Part shown: positions 27,529 through 63,090 of the stretch, one piece after another
How positions within the stretch are numbered: the first letter of the stretch is position 1
Layout of the letters: each line of letters opens with the position of its first letter
Assembly (NCBI GenBank): GCA_003116975.1
Contig: BGKB01000007.1
Span: forward strand, 372,001 to 436,000
Source of the DNA: Aurantiochytrium sp. KH105
Lineage: Eukaryota > Sar > Bigyra > Thraustochytrida > Thraustochytriidae
Length of the DNA: 64,000 nt
Reading direction: 5' to 3'
Program-made: the position numbers and the translations under genes
Notes under the pieces: model-generated
Database searches by the model: none
Seen by the model: only the letters and a program-made list of their open reading frames with translations
Told to the model about the DNA's origin: nothing

Positions 27529-30500
27529 CTAATAAGCGTGTGCAAGCGAGAACATGCCCGAGGAAGGCACAATGATCGCAGCGTCTCCAGAGATGGAGAT
27601 CATGTTGTAGACAGACTTGAGCGACTTGACGGTCGACTGCCGCGGAGTGATCTTGTACGAGAGCAGAACGTTGCCCTGCAGCGCAGCTACGTGCGCGCGT
27701 GCAATGGCTTGCGCCTCGTTGAGGAACTCCTGGAAAAACTTGCCCATACCACCCCCGCCCTCGCGCACTGCCCATGATTCGCGAATAAAGTGCAAATTGA
27801 TGCGCCCCAAGTAGCGAACGATCGTGTGTTCGGGTACAAAGGGAAGTGGCGTGACATGGATCATTACATGCAGAGCGCCATGCTCGCGCCCCCCTTGTAG
27901 AGGCTCCAAAGCTGGCTTCTCCGGGGCAATCATCAGTTCGCCCATATTGCTTGCAGAATGCTGCACTTGAAGGCTCGACGAAAACGAGCCATCCCGATCG
28001 TCCGAGCTATCTATCGACGAGCTACCGGCGCGCTGCAAGGGCGGAACCATATCATTCTGGTCCCATGACGATGTTTGGCTCGCAACCTCAGGTCTTGAAG
28101 CCTCATCTTCGGCTCCACTTGGCAATGTTGAGGTCCCGGTACCCGGTTCTCTTGTTGCCGTCGATGACGGAAACGGCGCCCCACCAGACGTATCGACCAG
28201 AACTGTGTCGCTCGATCGAGCAACCATCATCGAGGCACTTGCTTCAGATATGGCCAACTGCCGCGATGAACTCGCATCGCCTCTCTCCACGTCTGCATAT
28301 GGGGCCTCCGAACGTATGTGCAGCGTTGTCGACATCCCGCCTCGCAGCAACGACTGATCCGTCAATGAGGAGCCATGCAGACTTCCCACAGATCGGCGAA
28401 AGTTCAAGTGCGGAAGATGCGGCAAGGGAACGTGCAAGTGACGCTTGATTCGCGGAAGGTGGAATCGCGAGAGCAGCGGGGAGGCGCGCCGCCGTTGCTC
28501 AACGACGGGCGGTACGCTGCTCAGTAGCTCGAGATCCGCGCCCGCGTGCGACGCTGGATCAAGTCCACCACCAAGCGCTGCACCATCCTCGGCGAGATAA
28601 GTACTTCGTTCTTTTCTTGCCCAAATCTCTTGCTCCGCCATCTGCAGCTGCAAATCTTCTGGATGCGCATTCAAAGCCCGTTCCGAAACAGGGTCCAGCA
28701 CCAGGGTGTCCGGCAGTCCGTAATAACCACGCGGCGTCGGCGCGGTCATGGCGTTTCCTGGTAGCAACGCCTCTGAAAGCTCAAAGGACCCCTCCTCTTC
28801 GGGAGCCTCTCGCGCCGGGACCATGCGTGATTGCAAAAGCTTCTTCATCATCTGCTCAATCGTTGAAGGCACCACCGTCGGTAAACCTCCCACAGAAGGC
28901 TCAAACTTCCATAAATTGACAAACATCGAGCTTGGTTGCTGCAACATCGCTTGCGTTGGCATTTCCGCGCGGTGAACCACGGCAGTAAGCATCACCTCGA
29001 CCGTGAACTCACTTGGAATTGAGAGGTCGCAGCGAATTCCACGCACCTCACACGGGACCATAGCCATCAATTTTACCGCAAGCATGCCGTGCAACTCCTG
29101 GAATAGTTCTGCAAATTGGGTGTTAAGACGCGCCACACGCGTCTCATCCATGCTTTTGCGAACGATCATCATCACCATGTGCGGCTTTCGCACAGACGAC
29201 ATCGCGCGACCACCGCCACCTCCGGCGAACCCGACTCCTCCTTGAGGAAGAATCTCCGTGTTACAGACGGCAATGCCCGGAGGAAGCTGCTTGTCCAATA
29301 TCACAGCCATGACGTCCTCATCTGTCTCATCGTCGACTTCAATCACAAACGTGTTTCGCGTGCTTCTAATTTCTGATAACAATGCTTCTGCCCGATCCAC
29401 TTCCATGTCGCTGTCCTCGCTCGACGACGACGAAGATGACGATGACGAAGACCACGACTCTTCCTCGCGCGCTTCATCGTCGGAGTCGCTGAGCAACGGC
29501 ACGGGGTCGTTGACCGCGTCCAAATGCTGCCCAGCCCATGTCCACGAGAGCGACGAAGTTGATCCTGACGAAGAAGAGCTCGATGAAGAAGAAGAGGAAG
29601 AAGAAGAAGAGGAAGAGGAAGAAGACGTCGACAAGGACGACGGTGACGAAACTGCCGAAAGCGCAGAACGCATCGACTTACGAGACCGAGAACTCTTTGA
29701 TGAGGACGATTCCGATGCAGACGATTCCGATGACGCCGCCCCTGCCGAGGAGCCGTGCGAGCGACGGCGCTGGACCGATTCATGCGCAGGGTTCCCGCCT
29801 CCTTGCGCACCATTGGGAGGCACTGACCGCGTCCGAGACTTGGCAGAGGCCGACGACGAGACTCGCGATCTCGCGCTCGAATCGCCATCTGAACGATTGC
29901 CGTTCCGCCGCGGTCCGTACTCGCCTGCATTCCGTCCATGATCCGTTCCGCGCCCTGATCGCTCCCGGCGACCTTTGCTGCTTTGCTTCTTGTGCGAGCG
30001 ATGCTTCTTGCGCGACGATTTGCTTGGTCGACGCACAAGACTCGGACGACTCTTTGAGCTGCGCATTTTCCCTTTTGGGGTGGCTTGGTGGGAACCAAGC
30101 TCCCCTGCGCGGTGGCCACTCTTTGACTTGCTTCCCGCAGGCGGCTCATAATCGTGATCTTCACTTTCTCCGATATCTTCTGCCTCATCATCACCGCGAT
30201 AATCAATATCTCGCGAGGCAAGAATGTCGCGCTTCCGTGTTGCTCGCGACTCGGAGTCTCGGTCTTGCCCCGACAGCTGTCGCCGTTGAAGCTTTGCAAT
30301 CAGATTTTTGCCTCCGGTGGCTCTTTCTTTGCGTAATTTACCCTCCCACCCACGACTTGAACGCGCTCGCGAAGAATTCATCAAGCTCCCTTTGCCTTTT
30401 TGCTCCGTTCCACTTGATCCTGTCCCATTGTTCAGCGATGCAAAAGACGACGTGACATTCGAGGTTGATCGCGACATTCCATCTCCTGCTCGTCGCGTAC

Positions 30501-33500
30501 GTGAAAACGGTGCGAACATGGTCTTTGCGGCAAGGGCAAAGCTTGCATTCTCCGTGTCTCCTCCGGTCCCTGCATCGATAACGTCCAGACCGTCTTTGCC
30601 GGCATCGGCAGCAAGCTTGGCGTGCCGGTGCGCTCCGCTTGATGACTTGGCATCAGAGTGATGCGCTTCCGGATCATCCTCCGCAGCATCGCCCTCGGCC
30701 CCTTCCGTTTCGCGAATGCTCTGTGAAATCACGTGCGAATCGGAATTGAATCGATGCCGCAAGGCTCGATGCGGCGTCCGCGAAGACGACTTGGTGGGAC
30801 TTTCGTTATCCTTGTCGTCACCAAGATCCGTCGTTGTGTGGTGAAAGGGCTGTTGTTTTGACGAGGAAGGCCGGTTGAGGTCCCGCGTCTTCGCACGAAG
30901 ACGCTTCCACACCGAAACGGGTTGGGGTCCTTGCAAAGAACGACCGCGAGCGGCGGCATGGTCTTCGCCAAAGGTTTTACCCCGATGCGCTGTTGCCCCA
31001 TCCTCGCTGCCGCCGTGGGTACTTTCTCCCGGATCCTCCCAATTGCGTTCATGCTTCGTGGGGAAGTCTCCTCCGTTCTCTTCGTCTTCCTCTTCTTCGT
31101 CCAGCGTGGGCGTCGCCACAGGCGTCGGCGCCTCAGATGCCTCGCCCTGTCGCAATTCACTCACCGCACCTTCGGAAGGATGCCCACGCCTCCGCGCGAG
31201 ACGTGCAATGACCGCGACAGGATTCCGCGTCTTGGCTGTGCTACGGGATGAAGGGCTCCGATGCGACGAAAGCGCTCGTCCAATACTCCGATCCTTTTCT
31301 GTATCGTGATCGTGCCCGTGTTCCACATCGGCAGCGTCCTCATGGTGACTTTTCTCCTCACGTGACCCGTGCAGATCCCCGCTCCCGCCAGGATAGCTCG
31401 AAAGGTCTGCGTTGCCGTGCCCGTCGAGGCCAAGCGAACGCGCCGAGCTGTACGTGGGGTCGTCCGTATCCATGCCGCTCTCGCCGGTTCGAAAGCCGCC
31501 AAGCGGGATCACATCGACGGTCAAATGCTCGTCGACCACGGCGTCAGCGCTTCGCCCCGATTCGCGCGAGCGACGAGAAAGTCGATACGCAGCCTCGCGG
31601 CCGCGCTTGCGGCGTTTGCGCTGCCGTTTGCGTGCACGGCGCTTGCGGGCCTCAAGGAGATATTCTTGCTGCCAACGACGGCGCGTCGCTCGTGTTGCTC
31701 GCTTCATGCGCCGCTTTGCTGTCGCGATAGCTTGCCGATACAGCCGAGCCTCGTTTGTGGCCATAGTGAGCATGCGGTCGCGATTTGCTGCGGCAATTCG
31801 CTCAATCTCCTTTTGAATGCGAACGTGCTTGCGATCGTCTTGGTCCTCGACCTCAAGACTGCGATGAATGCGCAAGACGGCCGGCGGTGGCAAGGCAGGC
31901 GAGTGCACGGCCGTGGCCGTCGTCACACCAATCATCAAGCTTGAACCGATTTGGACCTGGGATCGCAGCCCAAACGCAGCGTTCATTCCCATGAGCTTGA
32001 GCTTGAGCATGAGCTGCTTGTGCAACTCAATCTCCAGGAAAATGAGATTCTCGGACACGGCTGAGGCGTCCACCTCGCGACTCTCCGCCTTGGAGTTGAG
32101 TTTAGGCCGAACGCGGCAGATTCGCGCCTCCACGAGAACACCGTGACCTGTGACGGGCAACAGGGGCGGCACCTCCGTCGTGGCAAGGATGACTTCAGGA
32201 ACCCACTTTTTCCGGCAAAGTCCGCACGGTACAAGACGCATGTTTGCAAAGGGCGCATTTTCACGATGATAAGGGGCGTGCACAATGGAGCATGGCAGAA
32301 CAGGCTTAGTTTCACGACGGCGCTGCTTGCGCGCCTCAACATGACTCATCCCTCGAGGCCTTCCTCCAGCAGCAGCGGCCGCGCCACCGAAAGTTCCGGT
32401 TGCGCTGGTGGCATTGTTGGCGGCAGAAGAGGCCGTATTGCCTCCTGCACCAGCCGTCAGGCCATCTCCATCCTCATTGTCCCCAGGCGCTCCGGGACTT
32501 TGGGAGCGGTGCCCGTACGCGCCACTTGGATCAGGGTCCATCGAGCTCGTTGGCTGCGGTGACGGTGATTGAGGATGCTGAAGCATTGAAATGGAATTCC
32601 GAGGCGAGTCCGATTGCGATTGTTTCGGACTACCCATGCGATGGGCCTGCCTTTGACGCTTGATCGCTTCGGCACGTTTCCGGTGCTTTTCGCGCTGACG
32701 CTGATCATGTCTTTCCTTCGTCTTGGTCTGCCACTCGTCGAGGTGCAGTCGCAGCTGCTGGTAATGGCTAAATTTGTTGCTCCCCGGGGGCGCAAGTTCC
32801 ATGACGACCATTTCTTGTGAGGTGTTGGCGTCTGGATCACTGCCATGGTCGGCCTCGCCAGCGGCTTCATTACCGTCTACGGAATAGCCTACGGCCCACG
32901 TGGCAGAATCTCCGCGCCCCCCACTGCCCTTTCCGCTCATGAACCCGCGAGACACGAGCAGACTTGCGACCACTCCTCCGCCGGTTGACCCAGCGCCAAG
33001 CGCATGATGGTCGCCGGCGAGATCATTGGAAGTCGTTGATGAGGACGCGTCATCACCGTCTCTTTCTCGCAAGTTGTCGTGAATGGCCAAGGCGCGGTTC
33101 TGCTGAGCTCGCGACCTCCGTGCGCGATCGCGGACGGCATCAGACGCTGCAGCAACACTCCAGATGGGGCGGTCCGAAAGGATTGCTGCTGCGGTCCCGG
33201 TGGCCTGCAATATGCATACGTCATCATGTACGACGCACTGCTCTTTGTAGCCGAGAACGTAGCGGCATCGAAGTGATCTGGCGTGGGAGCGAATTTCCTC
33301 GCGAATTTCAGCCCACCATTCGTCACGGGTTTCCTGATCCGAAATTTTGGCAGCAAGACGTCCCAGAAACTTTACAGAACGCGTTGCCACCACCCCACCG
33401 AGTCGCACGCGTATGTTCATGGGAAGAACCGTAATTGTGAGCAAGGTTACCTCACGCTCGAGACCAGGCAACTTGCGAATGTATTGCGTAGCGGACCCAG

Positions 33501-35067
33501 TACCACCACCACCGCCGCCGCCGCCTCCGCCACCACCCGGTCCGCCGCCGCCTACGGAGTTTTCGTCATCGCTGGAGCTTCCCGCATCGTTGGCCCTCTC
33601 AATTACCTCCAGACGGCGCGGCGCGGATGGAACACTGCGCACAAGCTCGCTCGAGATCGCTCCAAGTCTGGGACTAAGATGTCGCGCAGATTGAGAGCGC
33701 GCGCCTCCGAAAGAAAATGTGCGACGGTGGTGATTTGGGCGAGGGTCCAACGATACAACTTTGATTCCGCAATGAACAAAGGCGAGCGCTGGGAAATTAA
33801 GATTTCGGATGGTCTCCAGTGCGCCGACGCCACCAGGCATGCCATCCGAAGGGGGAAGCAGAGGTATCGCGCTTGCAATAGGACGCGAAAGCGGTCCGAC
33901 GGATCCAGGCAAGACCACCGCGTCTTCGTAGACATTTCCAACAATGGGCTCGACAATGCAGGCTGTCCCAGACCCACGAGCAACCATGCCCGAGTCGCCC
34001 TCAACATCAAAGGTTTGGTGATAGCCAACGACGGCGTTACCTCCGAGTTCGAGGACCTTTTTTCCGATTTGGCGCCTCACTTGGCTCGACAATTTATACA
34101 AGAGGTTCTGACGTGACTCGTTGCTCTTGCGCGCAGTGCGAAAATTGTCAATGAGCTCGAACTCCGGGTCAGCCTCGACAACGAGCTCCTCTACAAATCC
34201 GAGCAAATGTTTTACGGTCATCACAGACTGCTCAAGGGATGATGCAGCAAAAAAAGGGACTCCTGCAGAGCTGTCCTTCCAAGGGTTCTCATCACCGTAA
34301 AAAGTGATCTTTACTGCCACATGGAGCTCGCCGCGGATCCCATTCAACGTGTCGTAGATCGGAAACCAGCCCGACAGCTGGTCCTCTTCAATTCGAGGGT
34401 AGGTCGCCGGCGCTTGATTCTCTGTTGCGTCAGCGCCTGGTCCTGCAGCATAATTTTTGCCCATGTCATTTCCCGGTATCCGCTCGTTGCTGCTTGTGCT
34501 GTTGTGGTTGTGGAGTCCGTGGCCTGCATTCGCGTGAGCACCAGCTTCGAGTGCAAGATTTCCGCTCTCTGGTCCCATCTGTCGCTGCCCAGGTTGCTCT
34601 CCGATAGCTCTTGAAGGGCTTTCGTCTGCGGCGGCACCGCCATCATCAAGGGATCCTTCACCGCTAAGGGCCCGGGCAGGCAGCGAAGTCGATCGCTGTA
34701 GAGGAGGGCTTTGATCGGCCCCGGCCACGACTGCAGCAGCGCCACTCGTTCGATCGGCGCTGTCGACTGCCATTTGCAGCAGCGGGCCGAGGCCGATGGA
34801 CACAGTGCCAATGAGATCATCCGCGCTGTAGACATCGTGGTCTAGCACCCGAAAGACGAGCGGCTCATTCTGCAGATCCGAATCGTCGAGGACCTGAAAG
34901 CGATGGTCTTCCTTCCATGACGGGTCGAGGGTTTTGCGCGCGATTTGCGTCTGGAACAATTGGTTCGCGAAGCGGACCTCGACAAAAGCGTCGGTGAGGT
35001 TCGAGGTGCGGTCCATGACCGGGAGGTCCCTGGCCTCCAGGACACGAAACTTGAGAAAGGAGGGCAT
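27529..35067 (-). CDS. C2CD5: Giant C2CD5 (CDP138)-like C2-domain protein
   Basis: Human C2CD5 is an Akt substrate with a Ca2+-binding C2 domain, linked to GLUT4 vesicle fusion. The 2512-residue homologue opens with a C2 domain (about 1-110). All five Ca2+-ligand Asp positions are kept: 19, 26, 76, 78 and 84. The conserved C2CD5 core then appears in pieces: SGWFPIYDTLNGIRGE (about 230), GNAVVGYHQTFD (about 350), ETRDEWWAEIREEIRSHA (about 590), a Cys-containing segment plus YLxxIELHKQL-like region (about 920-1066), NTFVIEVDDETDEDV (about 1905) and a C-terminal block (about 2396-2512) with YLGRINLHFIRE and AHVAALQGNVLLSY. Long disordered inserts, including poly-Gly, poly-Ser and Ser/Arg-rich stretches, make it 2.5 times the human length (about 1000). 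The first Cys pair of the human zinc-knuckle-like segment is only half kept. No frameshift is seen. Confidence 0.88.
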   Translation of the reverse strand: MPSFLKFRVLEARDLPVMDRTSNLTDAFVEVRFANQLFQTQIARKTLDPSWKEDHRFQVLDDSDLQNEPLVFRVLDHDVYSADDLIGTVSIGLGPLLQMAVDSADRTSGAAAVVAGADQSPPLQRSTSLPARALSGEGSLDDGGAAADESPSRAIGEQPGQRQMGPESGNLALEAGAHANAGHGLHNHNSTSSNERIPGNDMGKNYAAGPGADATENQAPATYPRIEEDQLSGWFPIYDTLNGIRGELHVAVKITFYGDENPWKDSSAGVPFFAASSLEQSVMTVKHLLGFVEELVVEADPEFELIDNFRTARKSNESRQNLLYKLSSQVRRQIGKKVLELGGNAVVGYHQTFDVEGDSGMVARGSGTACIVEPIVGNVYEDAVVLPGSVGPLSRPIASAIPLLPPSDGMPGGVGALETIRNLNFPALAFVHCGIKVVSLDPRPNHHRRTFSFGGARSQSARHLSPRLGAISSELVRSVPSAPRRLEVIERANDAGSSSDDENSVGGGGPGGGGGGGGGGGGTGSATQYIRKLPGLEREVTLLTITVLPMNIRVRLGGVVATRSVKFLGRLAAKISDQETRDEWWAEIREEIRSHARSLRCRYVLGYKEQCVVHDDVCILQATGTAAAILSDRPIWSVAAASDAVRDRARRSRAQQNRALAIHDNLRERDGDDASSSTTSNDLAGDHHALGAGSTGGGVVASLLVSRGFMSGKGSGGRGDSATWAVGYSVDGNEAAGEADHGSDPDANTSQEMVVMELAPPGSNKFSHYQQLRLHLDEWQTKTKERHDQRQREKHRKRAEAIKRQRQAHRMGSPKQSQSDSPRNSISMLQHPQSPSPQPTSSMDPDPSGAYGHRSQSPGAPGDNEDGDGLTAGAGGNTASSAANNATSATGTFGGAAAAAGGRPRGMSHVEARKQRRRETKPVLPCSIVHAPYHRENAPFANMRLVPCGLCRKKWVPEVILATTEVPPLLPVTGHGVLVEARICRVRPKLNSKAESREVDASAVSENLIFLEIELHKQLMLKLKLMGMNAAFGLRSQVQIGSSLMIGVTTATAVHSPALPPPAVLRIHRSLEVEDQDDRKHVRIQKEIERIAAANRDRMLTMATNEARLYRQAIATAKRRMKRATRATRRRWQQEYLLEARKRRARKRQRKRRKRGREAAYRLSRRSRESGRSADAVVDEHLTVDVIPLGGFRTGESGMDTDDPTYSSARSLGLDGHGNADLSSYPGGSGDLHGSREEKSHHEDAADVEHGHDHDTEKDRSIGRALSSHRSPSSRSTAKTRNPVAVIARLARRRGHPSEGAVSELRQGEASEAPTPVATPTLDEEEEDEENGGDFPTKHERNWEDPGESTHGGSEDGATAHRGKTFGEDHAAARGRSLQGPQPVSVWKRLRAKTRDLNRPSSSKQQPFHHTTTDLGDDKDNESPTKSSSRTPHRALRHRFNSDSHVISQSIRETEGAEGDAAEDDPEAHHSDAKSSSGAHRHAKLAADAGKDGLDVIDAGTGGDTENASFALAAKTMFAPFSRTRRAGDGMSRSTSNVTSSFASLNNGTGSSGTEQKGKGSLMNSSRARSSRGWEGKLRKERATGGKNLIAKLQRRQLSGQDRDSESRATRKRDILASRDIDYRGDDEAEDIGESEDHDYEPPAGSKSKSGHRAGELGSHQATPKGKMRSSKSRPSLVRRPSKSSRKKHRSHKKQSSKGRRERSGRGTDHGRNAGEYGPRRNGNRSDGDSSARSRVSSSASAKSRTRSVPPNGAQGGGNPAHESVQRRRSHGSSAGAASSESSASESSSSKSSRSRKSMRSALSAVSSPSSLSTSSSSSSSSSSSSSSSSSSSSGSTSSLSWTWAGQHLDAVNDPVPLLSDSDDEAREEESWSSSSSSSSSSSEDSDMEVDRAEALLSEIRSTRNTFVIEVDDETDEDVMAVILDKQLPPGIAVCNTEILPQGGVGFAGGGGGRAMSSVRKPHMVMMIVRKSMDETRVARLNTQFAELFQELHGMLAVKLMAMVPCEVRGIRCDLSIPSEFTVEVMLTAVVHRAEMPTQAMLQQPSSMFVNLWKFEPSVGGLPTVVPSTIEQMMKKLLQSRMVPAREAPEEEGSFELSEALLPGNAMTAPTPRGYYGLPDTLVLDPVSERALNAHPEDLQLQMAEQEIWARKERSTYLAEDGAALGGGLDPASHAGADLELLSSVPPVVEQRRRASPLLSRFHLPRIKRHLHVPLPHLPHLNFRRSVGSLHGSSLTDQSLLRGGMSTTLHIRSEAPYADVERGDASSSRQLAISEASASMMVARSSDTVLVDTSGGAPFPSSTATREPGTGTSTLPSGAEDEASRPEVASQTSSWDQNDMVPPLQRAGSSSIDSSDDRDGSFSSSLQVQHSASNMGELMIAPEKPALEPLQGGREHGALHVMIHVTPLPFVPEHTIVRYLGRINLHFIRESWAVREGGGGMGKFFQEFLNEAQAIARAHVAALQGNVLLSYKITPRQSTVKSLKSVYNMISISGDAAIIVPSSGMFSLAHAY
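29565..29632 (-). repeat. Poly-Ser-encoding triplet tract in the C2CD5 homologue
   Basis: On the minus strand this is a run of TCT/TCC/TCG-type Ser codons giving about 20 consecutive serines. It is a site where length variation or slippage is expected. The mixed codons argue for selection on the peptide rather than recent expansion alone. Confidence 0.7.
33500..33546 (-). repeat. Poly-Gly-encoding GGN tract in the C2CD5 homologue
   Basis: A run of GGT/GGC/GGA codons yields a glycine stretch of about 12 residues, interrupted by one Pro just before it. It lies between the first and second conserved C2CD5 core blocks and behaves as a flexible linker. Confidence 0.65.
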
Positions 35068-56643: not shown

Positions 56644-59600
56644 ATGCCGGGGCGAGAGACCAAACCAGTCCGAGCGCTTCTGATTATTGATTGTCAAAAT
56701 GACTTTATTCCGAGCGAAGATGGCTCTCTTGCTGTGCCCGATGCCGAGGCGGTTCTGCCAGTCATCAACAAGCTCCGAAGCAAGGAGTTCGACTTTGTAT
56801 ACCTGTGTTTAGACTGGCACCCGTACAATCATTGCTCGTTTCGTACCAATAATCCTGGCGCCGATCTCTTTGAGGTGGTCCACTTACCGACCACGGGAAA
56901 TGCTCAAATCATGTGGCCAGACCACTGCGTGCAGGGGACACACGGCGCCGAACTCCACAAAGACCTCAAGATCGAGGTTTCTGACATATACACATATGCA
57001 GGATGCAATCCGCAGCGCGACAGCTATTCTGTCTTCAAGGATAATGGTTCGACCGTCCTGACGGAAATGCGAGACCTTCTCGAAGAAAGCGCGGTGACAG
57101 AAATCTATGCCGTCGGTCTTGCGACAGATTACTGTGTACAGTACACGCTTCTCGATGCCAAGAGTCTCTTGCAAGGCGTCGAAGTGTTCTTCATTCAGGA
57201 TGGCTGCCGCGGAATCAGCGACGCGGGCGTCAAGGGTGCTGTCGACGCTTTCAAGAGCGAAAAAGTCCACATCATTTCCTCTGGCGGACCCGAGCTCGGT
57301 CGCATTGCAGATCGCAAAATACGCATTGACGGTGGCCTGGAGCTTCTTAAGAGAAATGACCGCGTCACAATGTTCAGCGAGGTCGACAGGATCTACGAGT
57401 CCATTATCTTTCGTACGGCGCAGGGTAAGGCGTGGGAAGAGGACTTGGCGAATCTGGTTCGCAGCGTCATTGTCAATCAGCTCTGTTCCTGGAGTGGAAA
57501 GAATGCGCTGCATGCCTGCTGTGAAATGGGAGATATTCGCACGCTTGAGCATCTAATTCGTGTGGCCGGCAAGGGACTCAACCTCGGCATGCGCACACGC
57601 AAAGACGAGAATGCGCTCATGCTTGCCATTCAAAGCAAGGACCCCACGCATCGCGCGGACATTGTTCGCCTCTTGCTCGACACTGCCGACGAGGGCCAGC
57701 GCCGCGAGTTGCTCTTTGGCCAAAGCCTGCAGTTTCGTCTTTCTGCTCTCATGTTTGCATGCCGCGACGGTCTTCCAGACGTTGTAAGCATCCTTCTCGA
57801 GGCAGAATGTTCGTCTTCCCTGAAGCTTCGCAGTGCGTTCGGCAAGACGGCGCTCATGTTTGCGTGCATTTCGAACACACAAGACCACGCTGCCATTGTG
57901 GAAATGATCTTGCGCTCGCAAGCTAAGCTCGAGGACCGCTTTGCGATGCTTCAAGAGACGGACAAGGAACGATGGAACAGTTTGCACTTTAGCGCCAAAT
58001 CAGGATCATTCGCCCGGGTCGACTGGAGCAGGGCGCTCGATGGCTACGAAAACATGTCTCGCCTTCCCATCAATGCCAAGACGCTCTCGGGTATCACCTT
58101 CTTACACCTAGCAGCTTTTAACGGGCGATCGGAGGTCATTCGAGCACTCATTGACAACTGTGCCCCGAATCGCAAGCGACGCATGATGGAGGCCATTTTA
58201 AAGAAGGGGCTCCGCCACCGCGTCAAGGTCAACGTTCCTATCAAGGGTTTGGGTCATACAGAACTCGATTTAGCAATCCAACGTCGTCACCTCGAATGTG
58301 CAAGGCTGCTGCTGAGACTGGGTTGCTACGCAGGGACGTCGTCGCAGGAGCAGATGCAGGAGCTCCTGCATCGTCTTGTGCTCATGGGCGACGTGGAGGC
58401 CTGCGAGAGCATCCTGAACTTTGCAGACGAGAATCGTGTCACAATCGATGACGCCCTCGTAGAGACAACGCAGCGCATTGAGCACCCGGAAACCTGCACG
58501 GTCTCATTTGCGAATCGGACGGACCCTGTCGCGCAGTTCTTGTACAAGTGCGAAATTTGTGGCGCCAGCGTTTGCCTTGTGTGCAAGGACCGCTGTCATG
58601 GGCCCGCAGCGTGTCGCCAGGCTTACCTCAAGCTCGACTTTGAGCACTTTCCTGACAAGGGTTGGGAGCCCTGCGGCACGGTGGTGTCGCAATGTGGCTG
58701 CGACCGCGACACCTGCTGCGCCACCGCGGCTACGGATGTGCGCGAGATTGAGGGCTACCGATTTATCCCCCACCCGGTACGAACGAGTGCTGTTCACCTG
58801 AATGCAGAACTACTACGACTCTCGCACTCAATCGCAAGGAACATGCACAACGTCTGGGCGCAAAGCCTTAGCGAGCTGGGATGGAGGTATGGTCGGGATA
58901 AAGACCCCGACGAAAAAGTGCATCCGCATTTGCTTCCATTTGACTCCCTCTCGATTGAAGGTGCCAAATACAATATGGACATGTCCGTCGAGACACTCAA
59001 GGTGATCCTTTCGCTAGGATACGAAATCCACCGACGCGTCGAAGCCCCGCGCTTTGGGCGTAATGACACCACCACAACGGATCCGTCCACGACGCCAAAC
59101 GCTGCTTTGAGCTCGAGCTCCAGCAGGGAGCCTGTGCAGCAGGACCCCGTGATGCTCACCAAGGCATTGAGCATGATGGCGAGCGATTCAACAATGAAGC
59201 AGCGCAAGATAAAGCTCGGTGTGACTTCTGCAGATCTGCTCGCAGGAACAGGTAACAAGTACTCTGAGTTTGCGTGGGATATTTCACGCCCAGACTGCGT
59301 TCCGCTCAACACGAGCGGGGTAGAGCTGCCCAAAGAACTCGCAACGCTTACAGAACGGATTGCATCCAACTCGCACGAGGTATGGGCGAGCGAGAAGATT
59401 CGTCAGGGATGGCGTTACGCACCGAGCCGTAATATTCGCAAAGACCTCAAGCTCAACTCGTCGCTTGTCCCTTATTACGTACTCACTCGTGAAGAGAAAG
59501 AACAGCTTCTTCAAGGAGCGCGCGAGACCATGAAAGTAATTCTAATGACGGGCTGGGTTGTTCATCCGAAAACCCGCGCGAGCGATAGCAGCGGGTCCAA

Positions 59601-62600
59601 AGGTCCAAAAACCAAATTTGCTGCCGCTTCTAGAGCCACGAATGAGAACGATAGCGACGAAGGCTCGAGCGACGACGACGACGATAATGGAGACGAGGAT
59701 GGCATGTCCGGAGATACGCATGGATCAGGAAGCGAGAGACGCAATGCAGGAAACCAACTCATGATTCCCTTGCGCAGGAGAGACACTGCGCAGCCAACCC
59801 GCAGCACGCTTGCATTTCGCCAGCTGAAGCTGATTCGCCGCAAGCTCTTCAATCAGTACCTCTTTGCAGCAGTCCGTCGCGGCCAGATCCACTCTGTCAA
59901 CATTTTGCTTTCGAAACGATCGAGTATGCACGTGGGCGCCAACCTTAACGCCATCGACGAATATGGGCACACGCCTTTGTATATTGCCATTAAGCGTGGC
60001 CAACTCGCCACGGCCAAACGGCTTCTAGCGCTTGGCGCCAATCTCGAGCTGCGTGATATCAATGGTCTTACGCCGCTGGCCCTATGCGCGTACCTGGGCA
60101 ATCTCAAACTGTGCATGGAGCTCGTGCAGAATCAAGCGCGCATTCTGGTGTGTGACGCCATGGGCTTCACACCGCTGCATCTTGCTGCGAACCAAGGCCA
60201 CGTCGAGGTGTGCAAGTATCTTACGGAGCGCCTGCAGCAGGAGCATCAGAGTGACGAGATTGTCGACCTGAACGCAGACATGGTCGATTACTCGGCAGCG
60301 GACGCCTTAGCGGAAGGCAACGTCATGGAACGGGACTCTGATGACGAGGGCAGTTCCGCGATGGGACGCTCGCGTCGAAGCTTTCGGACGATGGCAACAG
60401 GGTCGACAAACGCGGGCCAAGCCCAGGCCCGATGGAAGCTCTTTCGAATCGTGTTTCGTTCCCGTGCCATGGGCAGTGAAAGGTCCAAGGTGGGCCGAAT
60501 TATCCCTGCAGAGGGTCTCACGGCATCCAAGAACTGGCAAACGGACCAAGTTGACCAGGTCTCCCCACTGCGTCGAATGCCGACTCGCCAGAGCACGCGG
60601 CTCTCCGGTCAATCGGAAGCCCTCTTCAATCAAAGCACGCCGCGCGAAGGAATCGCTTCAGTGCAGACAGGTTTGATGCCAAGCCGCACTACGCAGAAAC
60701 TCTTGCGGTCAGGAAGCGACCTGGGCGAGGCAGCGGCACAGTCACGACTTTCGGGGTACCCGCCATTGTCGCTTGCAGTGCAATCAGACAATATTGAAAT
60801 TGTGGAGCTTCTCATCAAGTACGGAGCAAACCCGATGCTCGCCGACGGCCCGGCAGCTATGTTCAGTCCATACGTGCGTGCCCTGCTTCGGCATATTGAG
60901 ATGTGCGCCAAGGTTGAATATCTGCAGGATCGGATCTCGCGACGTGCGCTTTACGACTTGCAAACAGCTGGAACCCTCCGGGCAGATGAAAAACCGCCAA
61001 ACAAGCTTGGACAAGACGGTCGCAAGGTTGGGCCCGGGGGGGCTTCCATGCGACAATCGGGTAGCTCGCTCATTCCGATGGACACCTATCGCGGCGATCC
61101 AGTCTCGGGCGATCAAAATAGCTTTGACTACGTCGACCCCAACGCGCTGAATCTGACGAATCGTACGCAATCACAGCGGACGCCCGGTAGCATGACCCCA
61201 AAGTCGTTGCCACCCATTGGGATTCCAGGTCGCAAACACTTTGGCATGGTCAAACGATTGGACACGCGAATCGGAAACCTTTTCGGCTTTGCTGGCGGCG
61301 AAGGCGGCGCTCAAGACATGCAAGAGCGCGTCGCCCCTGATATCGGTCCGGATGGCCCCTCGGGCGTTACGGGAAACATTAACACACAGCAAGTGAGTTC
61401 CACGCGCGAGCTCGATCAGTTGTTAGAAAAGGCACAGGATGAGCGTGCAAAGGCAGCTCGCATGGTGGAGGTGATGAATCGATCATCCAAGGTGAGCGCA
61501 TGGCGAAGGCGGACGGCCATCAAGATGTGTGTCAAAGAGACAAGTCTTTTGCTCATCCTTATCATCTCATTCGGTTGCCTTGTGCAGCTCTCGCCAGACT
61601 ACGGGATCGAATCCGAGGGGGAATGGGCGGACCAGCTACGTGGACATCTTGCGGAAAGCACTGCGAGTATTGACGGCCCAGCGGACTTTTTGGATTGGGT
61701 CCAACATAAGTTTGTCGGCGAGGAGCTTTTGCGGGCTGCGAATCGCACTGCATGGCGTGGGAAGAACTTTGTTTTTGGCGGGATTGCTCTCGATATGTAT
61801 GAGCACAACGCACTTGAAGAGCTTGATAATGCCCAGCTGACCACAATCGCAAGTCTTGACACCTCGACAGAGTATCAGACGTCGCTGCTGCCGCAAGCTG
61901 ACAAGGAGGAGCTCTTAAATATCCTGACGAGCGAGACAGGGAACTGGACCCAGAACGAAGTTCATATCCTCTCTCTCACCTTCAACCTGTACAACCCATT
62001 TTACGAAGTGTACGGCATCGCTGAAGTGCGGCAAACCTCCTCGTTTGTGGGGCTGAACAGCTTGGATGTGGATGTGAAACCCTTTCGACTTCACTATGGC
62101 AGGTTTCCGCCGTCTCGATCATTTCAGCTGGCTGTGCTGATTATGGTCATTTGCTTCACCATCACCAAGCTGCGAAGCTGGGTTCGTGCTCGGCACCGTT
62201 CGCGAGGGCGGCGAACAGAGGAATGGGTGATTGAGTTTTTGCTTTTGGGCATTCTCATTTTTGACATTTACGTCTACGAGGTCACAAAAGATGTGACGCC
62301 AGACTACACATCGAGCGAGCGACTGGATCTGTCGCAAGCCTACCGCTTGCTTGAGGTTGAGCGGAGATTCTTTGCCATCTACTTTTTGCTCAGTGTGCTG
62401 CCGCTGCTCAAGGCGACGCAGACGATTCCGTCGATAGGGCCTGTGGTCGTGGCGCTGCTGAGCACCATGACGAATACGGCCGTTCTCATCTATTTGCTCG
62501 TTATTTCGACGGCGTGCTTTTTGCTCACGCTTACTTTTCACGTTGGCTTTGGCATTTCTGTCTCGCAGTTCGCCACCATGATTACAACCTTTGAGAGCCT

Positions 62601-63090
62601 TTTTCTCACGCCATTTGTGGAGACTTGGGACGGCATCATAACAAGTTCGCACTCTTCATATCTCGGTGCTGTGCTCGCGGTATTTTACATTCTCTTTGCG
62701 ACAATTTCGCTCAATCTGCTCATAGCTATTGTGACAGACGTGTATCCGAGCGCTCGCGCTGCGTCGGATCGTGAGTGGGAGGAGATTATCACGGGCGGAA
62801 TCGAAGACAACTTGCGGGATTTGCTGCACCGGCAGAATATTTCGCAAAAAGATCTCCGCATCGAGACGTGGAATGAGGCCAAGCTACTCACGGGTCGGGA
62901 TGGACGAAAGCATTGGGTCGCTTCGGATGCTGTGAACGACGACGAAGGCTGCGAGGCCGGAGCGCCAGCCATGGATGGGAGCTCTTCACATCAAAGTACT
63001 AACGACAAGCTCGCAGCGCTTTCTGAACAGATACGGCAGCTCACTTCTATTGTTGAAAGTTTGCGCGCAGCTCCAGGTGCAACCGACTAA
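56644..63090 (+). CDS. Nicotinamidase-like/ankyrin/RyR/polycystin-type channel fusion
   Basis: One 2148-residue frame. Residues 8-215: nicotinamidase fold with Asp16, metal ligands Asp57, His59 and His63, WPDHCVQGTHGAELH, and the ATDYCV nucleophile Cys164. The catalytic Lys of the usual KG pair is Ala119. Residues about 280-560: ankyrin repeats. About 618-692: Cys/His-rich UBR-box-like finger. About 720-797 and 897-975: two RyR domains (RNMHNVWAQ...GWRYG; SNSHEVWAS...GWRYA). About 980-1030: acidic linker. About 1066-1200 and 1371-1406: more ankyrin. About 1633-2034: six membrane helices with a large glycosylatable S1-S2 loop (FNLYNPFYEVYG) as in polycystin-2, a pore segment (about 1979-1997) and a long S6. 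C-terminus: coiled coil (about 2119-2145). It is probably a cation channel gated by a small metabolite. ATG 56644 is the first in frame directly before the enzyme-like domain. Confidence 0.88.
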   Translation: MPGRETKPVRALLIIDCQNDFIPSEDGSLAVPDAEAVLPVINKLRSKEFDFVYLCLDWHPYNHCSFRTNNPGADLFEVVHLPTTGNAQIMWPDHCVQGTHGAELHKDLKIEVSDIYTYAGCNPQRDSYSVFKDNGSTVLTEMRDLLEESAVTEIYAVGLATDYCVQYTLLDAKSLLQGVEVFFIQDGCRGISDAGVKGAVDAFKSEKVHIISSGGPELGRIADRKIRIDGGLELLKRNDRVTMFSEVDRIYESIIFRTAQGKAWEEDLANLVRSVIVNQLCSWSGKNALHACCEMGDIRTLEHLIRVAGKGLNLGMRTRKDENALMLAIQSKDPTHRADIVRLLLDTADEGQRRELLFGQSLQFRLSALMFACRDGLPDVVSILLEAECSSSLKLRSAFGKTALMFACISNTQDHAAIVEMILRSQAKLEDRFAMLQETDKERWNSLHFSAKSGSFARVDWSRALDGYENMSRLPINAKTLSGITFLHLAAFNGRSEVIRALIDNCAPNRKRRMMEAILKKGLRHRVKVNVPIKGLGHTELDLAIQRRHLECARLLLRLGCYAGTSSQEQMQELLHRLVLMGDVEACESILNFADENRVTIDDALVETTQRIEHPETCTVSFANRTDPVAQFLYKCEICGASVCLVCKDRCHGPAACRQAYLKLDFEHFPDKGWEPCGTVVSQCGCDRDTCCATAATDVREIEGYRFIPHPVRTSAVHLNAELLRLSHSIARNMHNVWAQSLSELGWRYGRDKDPDEKVHPHLLPFDSLSIEGAKYNMDMSVETLKVILSLGYEIHRRVEAPRFGRNDTTTTDPSTTPNAALSSSSSREPVQQDPVMLTKALSMMASDSTMKQRKIKLGVTSADLLAGTGNKYSEFAWDISRPDCVPLNTSGVELPKELATLTERIASNSHEVWASEKIRQGWRYAPSRNIRKDLKLNSSLVPYYVLTREEKEQLLQGARETMKVILMTGWVVHPKTRASDSSGSKGPKTKFAAASRATNENDSDEGSSDDDDDNGDEDGMSGDTHGSGSERRNAGNQLMIPLRRRDTAQPTRSTLAFRQLKLIRRKLFNQYLFAAVRRGQIHSVNILLSKRSSMHVGANLNAIDEYGHTPLYIAIKRGQLATAKRLLALGANLELRDINGLTPLALCAYLGNLKLCMELVQNQARILVCDAMGFTPLHLAANQGHVEVCKYLTERLQQEHQSDEIVDLNADMVDYSAADALAEGNVMERDSDDEGSSAMGRSRRSFRTMATGSTNAGQAQARWKLFRIVFRSRAMGSERSKVGRIIPAEGLTASKNWQTDQVDQVSPLRRMPTRQSTRLSGQSEALFNQSTPREGIASVQTGLMPSRTTQKLLRSGSDLGEAAAQSRLSGYPPLSLAVQSDNIEIVELLIKYGANPMLADGPAAMFSPYVRALLRHIEMCAKVEYLQDRISRRALYDLQTAGTLRADEKPPNKLGQDGRKVGPGGASMRQSGSSLIPMDTYRGDPVSGDQNSFDYVDPNALNLTNRTQSQRTPGSMTPKSLPPIGIPGRKHFGMVKRLDTRIGNLFGFAGGEGGAQDMQERVAPDIGPDGPSGVTGNINTQQVSSTRELDQLLEKAQDERAKAARMVEVMNRSSKVSAWRRRTAIKMCVKETSLLLILIISFGCLVQLSPDYGIESEGEWADQLRGHLAESTASIDGPADFLDWVQHKFVGEELLRAANRTAWRGKNFVFGGIALDMYEHNALEELDNAQLTTIASLDTSTEYQTSLLPQADKEELLNILTSETGNWTQNEVHILSLTFNLYNPFYEVYGIAEVRQTSSFVGLNSLDVDVKPFRLHYGRFPPSRSFQLAVLIMVICFTITKLRSWVRARHRSRGRRTEEWVIEFLLLGILIFDIYVYEVTKDVTPDYTSSERLDLSQAYRLLEVERRFFAIYFLLSVLPLLKATQTIPSIGPVVVALLSTMTNTAVLIYLLVISTACFLLTLTFHVGFGISVSQFATMITTFESLFLTPFVETWDGIITSSHSSYLGAVLAVFYILFATISLNLLIAIVTDVYPSARAASDREWEEIITGGIEDNLRDLLHRQNISQKDLRIETWNEAKLLTGRDGRKHWVASDAVNDDEGCEAGAPAMDGSSSHQSTNDKLAALSEQIRQLTSIVESLRAAPGATD

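Follow-up and report, generated by a model that had tools for sequence, protein, structure and literature searches.

In a 64,000-nucleotide stretch of DNA from the thraustochytrid Aurantiochytrium sp. KH105 (contig BGKB01000007.1, positions 372,001 to 436,000 of the forward strand; the window in what follows) we found a gene, here called channel A, in which a nicotinamidase-fold domain and a six-transmembrane (6-TM) ion channel are joined in one open reading frame (ORF). Our tentative interpretation, to which we give slightly under an even chance, is that the product would be a cation channel regulated by the breakdown products of NAD+ through a nicotinamidase-fold module that has ceased to be catalytic. 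The order of domains in channel A is nicotinamidase-fold, ankyrin, UBR-like finger, RyR, RyR, ankyrin and 6-TM channel. An earlier note on this DNA, made from the sequence alone (the original prediction), had claimed a single-frame fusion running from the enzyme-fold domain through the channel, and the ORF was indeed uninterrupted. The genome searched comprised 76 Mb in 367 contigs. The features of channel A in window coordinates were the following.

56644..63090, + strand: channel A, full ORF of 2148 amino acids (aa), ATG to TAA, no break anywhere in the frame
56665..57288, + strand: nicotinamidase-fold domain, about aa 8-215 (PF00857, E 1.5e-17; PRK11609, 1.1e-48; structure 2wt9, 4e-45)
56998..57000, + strand: Ala119 codon GCA, at the catalytic Lys position of relatives (alignment, both alleles)
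57133..57135, + strand: Cys164, at the catalytic Cys position, kept (alignment with relatives)
57469..58443, + strand: N-terminal ankyrin block, about aa 276-600 (Pfam; 36% identity to the paralogue, channel B)
58495..58719, + strand: UBR-box-like Cys/His finger, about aa 618-692 (motif alone)
58762..59031, + strand: RyR domain 1, HxxW motif with Trp738 (PF02026, 1.6e-23; animal RyR repeats)
59302..59565, + strand: RyR domain 2, HxxW motif with Trp914 (PF02026, 4.0e-22; animal RyR repeats)
59821..60873, + strand: C-terminal ankyrin block, about aa 1060-1410, containing a long insert (Pfam; comparison with channel B)
61516..62763, + strand: 6-TM channel, S1-S6, about aa 1625-2040 (Ion_trans; hydropathy; profile comparison)
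61603..62115, + strand: long S1-S2 loop, about 170 aa, of polycystin/TRPML-like length (hydropathy; profile match)
62608..62631, + strand: pore motif TPFVETWD, aa 1989-1996 (aligned with ETW of bacterial ion-transport (sodium) channels)

The Pfam Isochorismatase family (PF00857) matched residues 11-211 of channel A with 64.7 bits against a cut-off of 27, and the NCBIfam nicotinamidase model PRK11609 matched with 165.8 bits, short of its equivalog cut-off of 174. The closest solved relative of the domain was the nicotinamidase 2wt9, and the motifs DCQNDF (16), MWPDHC (90) and ATDYCV (160) were all present, so that the nicotinamidase fold named in the original prediction was borne out. To assign the catalytic residues we used the Asp8-Lys96-Cys138 triad of Mycobacterium PncA (PMC8174790). 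The domain was aligned with 46 relatives (44 prokaryote loci and 2 loci on viral contigs; alignment A1 contains the window domain and 29 of them), and all 46 were counted, including a partial one (L106) and three from Pseudovibrio (L108-L110) in which the metal residues are missing and which probably represent other proteins of the isochorismatase fold. The catalytic Lys was found in 45 of the 46 relatives. In channel A this position is Ala119, encoded by GCA in both alleles, and the triad is thus incomplete (Asp16, Ala119, Cys164); the replacement had been overlooked in the original prediction. The metal residues Asp57, His59 and His94 were kept, and so were the pocket residues Phe21, Trp91 and Tyr128, which we take to be the stacking partners in the nicotinamidase pocket. 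The domain therefore shares with PncA (2wt9 and others) its fold, metal-site residues, pocket aromatics and the Asp and Cys of the triad, and differs from it in having Ala for the catalytic Lys and in sitting within a channel. Both viral loci carry a nicotinamidase gene with the triad intact. The sole relative without Lys, from an Erysipelotrichaceae metagenome-assembled genome (L107:983-1564), has His for the triad Asp and Ile for the Lys, and is possibly an independent pseudo-nicotinamidase.

A whole-genome protein search detected a second copy of channel A with 99% identity on another contig (C10:194855-201301) and a pair of paralogous copies on contigs C41 and C16, which matched channel A in four segments, 36-49% identical, covering about 1,600 of its 2,148 residues. 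From the identities and the pairing of the contigs we infer that C7/C10 and C41/C16 represent two haplotypes of two genes, channels A and B. Channel B (2115 aa) consists of nicotinamidase-like, ankyrin, finger, RyR, RyR, ankyrin and channel regions, and its identity to channel A was 36% in the nicotinamidase domain, 36% in the N-terminal ankyrin block, 49% in the finger, 47% and 46% in the RyR domains, 44% in the C-terminal ankyrin block, 36% in the channel and 8-34% in the linkers. Each of the four copies had an open frame of more than 2100 aa. The same order of domains in the allele and in channel B indicates that the fusion is older than the A/B split and is no assembly artefact. In channel B (L031:1602-7949) some 320 aa follow S6, compared with about 110 aa in channel A, and no Pfam match above the cut-off was found in this tail; the C-terminus we presume to be a coiled coil.

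The nicotinamidase-like domain of channel B has departed much further from the enzyme. Its triad positions are occupied by His, Thr and Ala; at the metal site Arg stands for the Asp and Glu for the second His, the first His alone being kept; and in the pocket Arg replaces the Trp and Val the Phe. It scored under the Pfam cut-off (E 0.13), yet PRK11609 matched it at 2e-12. Between alleles the domain showed 15 synonymous and 2 nonsynonymous differences in channel A, and 10 and 0, respectively, in channel B. The probability of such differences under neutrality was at most 1.7e-6 (A) and 8.8e-6 (B) for transition biases from 1 to 8, in a simple binomial test that takes the changes as independent. 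Since synonymous changes far outnumber nonsynonymous ones, the domain is under purifying selection in both channels, unlike a degenerate leftover. Since the Lys is lost in channel A and the triad in channel B while selection persists, the domain is a conserved one that is probably no longer catalytic, as in human TRPM2.

The two RyR domains (aa 707-796 and about 887-974) lie N-terminal to the channel. Both matched animal ryanodine receptor repeats, and each contains an N-x-H-x-x-W-A motif (Trp738 and Trp914), in agreement with the two RyR domains originally predicted; in the Pfam search RyR was detected in two stretches (E 1.1e-47) and ankyrin models reached E 1.5e-50. Binding of adenine nucleotides by RyR-domain proteins has been reported; in the case of RyR3, a pseudosymmetric cleft anchored by Trp880 and Trp994 accommodates nucleotides and dantrolene (PMC12627627). 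Counting along the alignment, we equated these residues with the HxxW tryptophans, which are Trp738 and Trp914 in channel A; the channel B counterparts are Trp739 and Trp870. Of the phosphate-contacting residues of RyR3, counted by eye, Arg895 corresponds to Lys in channel A, and Lys884 and Arg1018 correspond to non-basic residues. A 2026 preprint describes a phage PF02026 protein that cleaves 2' and 3' cyclic ADP-ribose (cADPR); 6 of 8 tested homologues bound 2'/3' cADPR, no other tested one degraded them, and the ligand-binding residues are described as conserved across the PF02026 family (PMC13232231). Like RyR Repeat12 and the phage RyDEP protein, channel A has two PF02026 domains with both anchoring Trp residues, whereas the phosphate-contacting basic residues of Repeat12 are partly kept and the nucleotide site is putative (PMC12627627, PMC13232231). 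The original prediction, correct about the RyR domains themselves, had passed over their role as a second candidate site for an NAD metabolite. A stand-alone RyR protein of about 250 aa with one domain is also encoded in the genome (C38:399970-400239 and C160:125033-125302).

A possible source of such metabolites is abundant in this organism. The genome search with TIR_2 (PF13676) gave 150 scored places and 258 candidates, with haplotypes not separated, and all 12 of the TIR_2 places examined had Glu at the candidate catalytic column, which we take to be the position of the catalytic Glu of TIR NADases. On each of the two contigs of channel B, a TIR place also lay some 9-10 kb away from it (C41:97958-98266 and C16:579190-579504), a proximity that is only suggestive because TIR places are so numerous in this genome. 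A CD38-type cyclase (PF02267) had no match in the genome and none in the control genomes either, so the result is uninformative.

The channel domain was examined by several approaches. Ion_trans matched residues 1861-2038 of channel A just below its cut-off (E 4.8e-5, 23.1 bits, cut-off 25) and channel B above it (29.1 bits). Hydropathy analysis detected six helices in channel B and five of the six in channel A, where S4 fell below the cut-off, with an S1-S2 loop of about 170 aa. Genome searches with the PKD_channel and Polycystin_dom profiles at E up to 0.001 missed channel A and matched 45 and 26 further places, respectively; neither profile appeared among the Pfam matches of the protein. 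The 45 PKD_channel places, haplotypes not separated, represent a broad polycystin family besides the two fused channels. An hhalign comparison with an alignment of 15 PKD-like ORFs of the same genome gave 97.5% (E 7.4e-12, 280 columns); S2-S6 alone gave 94.8%, the loop region 46-56% and the query loop alone 19.4%, and with column shuffles as the control used, 8 of 8 stayed at 0.1% or less. The PKD alignment contained 15 of the 30 PKD-like loci fetched, some of them allele pairs, after 5 without an ORF and 10 shorter than 700 aa had been left out. Comparisons with single PKD ORFs gave 0.7-23.8%, which weighs against polycystin kinship. The pore motif TPF(V/I)ETWD (TPFIETWD in channel B) aligned with the bacterial ETW motif, unlike the LGD selectivity filter of polycystins (PMC7399828), and the ring of Glu residues that it would form would suit Ca2+ permeation. 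The term 'polycystin-type' used for channel A in the original prediction thus agrees with the six transmembrane helices and the long S1-S2 loop and disagrees with the PKD_channel and Polycystin_dom profiles and the filter; with profile comparisons mixed, polycystin kinship is only moderately supported. A profile search of the Protein Data Bank (PDB) with the channel alignment of the two paralogues (window 61471-62880) found nothing significant (best E 0.045), and the single-sequence search matched bacterial ion-transport channels (E 0.00076) and TRPC3 (about 0.09). On these results the channel is not assignable by sequence to the solved structures. The best of the non-significant profile matches was the TRPV subunit 'Inactive', the partner in the nicotinamide-gated Nan-Iav channel.

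Taken as a regulated channel, channel A would be a 6-TM cation channel of TRP/polycystin grade, probably tetrameric and probably Ca2+-permeable, whose cytosolic N-terminal nicotinamidase-fold domain is an enzyme turned regulatory module. Because the pocket and the metal site are kept and the Lys is Ala, this domain may bind nicotinamide or a similar pyridine with no turnover or a very slow one. The RyR tandem would bind an adenine nucleotide such as ADP-ribose (ADPR) or a cADPR, and cleavage of NAD+, in which the numerous TIR proteins encoded here could take part, would supply both ligands. Their binding could be relayed through the ankyrin blocks to the pore, and channel B, having lost the pocket, may assemble with channel A as its partner subunit. 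In a bolder form of the model, which we consider quite unlikely, the channel would act as a coincidence detector, in which the pseudo-nicotinamidase reads nicotinamide, the RyR tandem reads ADPR or cADPR and the pore opens only when TIR-type NADases fire, a one-step TIR-to-Ca2+ switch in stress or immunity.

Several findings weigh against a channel regulated in this way. Charge is apparently kept at one of the three phosphate-contacting basic residues of RyR3. An Arg located six residues past Ala119, common to channels A and B, may replace the Lys. The genome has NAPRT, yet searches found neither NAMPT nor a further nicotinamidase. A simple nicotinamide sensor is, moreover, at odds with channel B, where purifying selection acts on a domain that has lost not only its triad but also two of its three metal ligands and, in the pocket, the Trp and the Phe. 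Because channel B retains the domain without the ligand-site residues, the role of the domain may be free of any ligand. The strongest rival explanation, unlikely in our estimate, is accordingly a structural or assembly module, in which the fold serves as a scaffold for subunit contacts or A/B heteromers with no relevant pyridine ligand; in its favour, the channel B domain, altered at the triad, the metal site and the pocket, shows no nonsynonymous difference between alleles. However, channel A retains all of the listed pocket and metal residues apart from the Lys at position 119, and a pure scaffold would have no need of them.

The salvage context bears on another rival, a working chanzyme whose domain hydrolyses nicotinamide as the only nicotinamidase of the cell and feeds NAPRT. 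A single NAPRT locus, present on two contigs, was detected with PF04095 (TIGR01513, 1.5e-163). At E up to 1 NAMPT_N matched nothing in this genome (control matches in 2 of 14 genomes), and a genome-wide search with a bacterial nicotinamidase query at the same threshold found no separate nicotinamidase: it matched channels A and B, each on two contigs, and one 38-residue segment at E 0.14. PF00857 matched just two loci, each on two contigs: channel A and a locus on C44 and C108, the C44 copy of which is YcaC-like (5.6e-8), far below the cut-off. With NAPRT present and NAMPT and a separate nicotinamidase not found, an active channel domain would be useful, and either nicotinamide is not recycled by the nicotinamidase/NAPRT route or the channel domain keeps some activity. 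The chanzyme draws its strongest support from this point, and the intact Asp16, Cys164, metal residues and pocket are also in its favour. On the other side, the Lys belongs to the catalytic triad (PMC8174790) and is almost invariant among the relatives, and its column has no basic residue in either channel A or channel B, so that we regard a working enzyme as improbable, a little more so than the coincidence detector. An artefact, whether from chimeric assembly or from reading two genes as one, is extremely improbable: chimeric assembly, named in the original prediction as the outcome that would undo the fusion, was rejected on the domain order repeated in the two haplotypes of channel A and in a divergent paralogue on two further contigs, and with every frame open in all four copies no frame break or intron is required between the enzyme-fold and channel parts.

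The regulated, non-catalytic channel has partial counterparts among known systems. The nearest precedent is the oomycete PKDRR, a PKD-type channel with two RyR domains placed by its authors in the TRP superfamily, so that the RyR-channel half of the architecture is already known (PMC7399828). Like channel A, PKDRR unites in a single stramenopile protein a 6-TM channel with a pair of RyR domains; the likeness is one of description, not of alignment. In PKDRR the RyR domains are near the C-terminus and so, to judge from the text, after the channel, whereas in channel A they precede it; the filters are LGA or AG(D/E), compared with TPFVETWD; PKDRR is described as oomycete-only, whereas the host of channel A is a thraustochytrid; and the main text, which mentions some homologues with additional domains, names no nicotinamidase or isochorismatase (PMC7399828). 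The architecture had been thought undescribed, and this stood for the nicotinamidase-channel fusion, of which we found no report in the openly licensed literature, and did not stand for the combination of PKD channel and two RyR domains.

The TRPM2 analogy drawn in the original prediction appears closer than was claimed, because channel A has lost its catalytic Lys much as the NUDT9-H domain of TRPM2 is reported to have changed from a slow ADPR hydrolase into a gating part, with catalysis lost in vertebrates including human (PMC11479946). Like TRPM2, channel A would be a member of the TRP superfamily in which an NAD+ metabolite, here putative, is served by an enzyme-fold module. The module of channel A differs in being a cysteine hydrolase fold, N-terminal and alongside RyR domains, where TRPM2 has a Nudix domain; no Nudix or NUDT9-H was found among the Pfam matches of channel A at E up to 10. 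A response of TRP-superfamily channels to nicotinamide itself has been reported for TRPV channels, since nicotinamide opens OSM-9/OCR-4 and the fly Nan-Iav and nicotinate does not; no nicotinamidase domain comes up for OSM-9/OCR-4 in the passages on this response (PMC5064019).

If the proposed regulation is correct, an NAD+ salvage enzyme fold would have been recruited as a channel regulator, a fold other than that of TRPM2, with channel A a single residue short of the active triad while channel B has degenerated fully. To our knowledge, it would be a second case of an NAD-metabolite enzyme turned channel gating domain. RyR domains occur here on a channel other than the animal RyRs, and the genome is rich in TIR places; a link between NAD+ cleavage and cation flux thereby becomes directly testable.

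The UBR-like finger between the first ankyrin block and the RyR domains rests on what we take to be the Cys/His pattern of a UBR box. Eleven Cys/His positions were common to channels A and B, in line with the finger as first described, but zf-UBR was absent among the Pfam matches of both, so the assignment lacked support there. Elsewhere in the genome the omega-3 polyunsaturated fatty acid (PUFA) synthase PfaA gave partial matches on two contigs (930 bits; the cut-off of 1010 was not reached), and matches, none above the cut-off, were also seen in 11 of the 14 control genomes; PUFA synthase is a thraustochytrid marker, and these partial matches and the ciliary gene named next are consistent with a host of that group. 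Six of the other large ORFs of the window were scanned, among them a Tectonic-like (TCTN) ciliary gene at 402-2918 and a C2CD5-like gene with YbjQ domains at 27529-35067.

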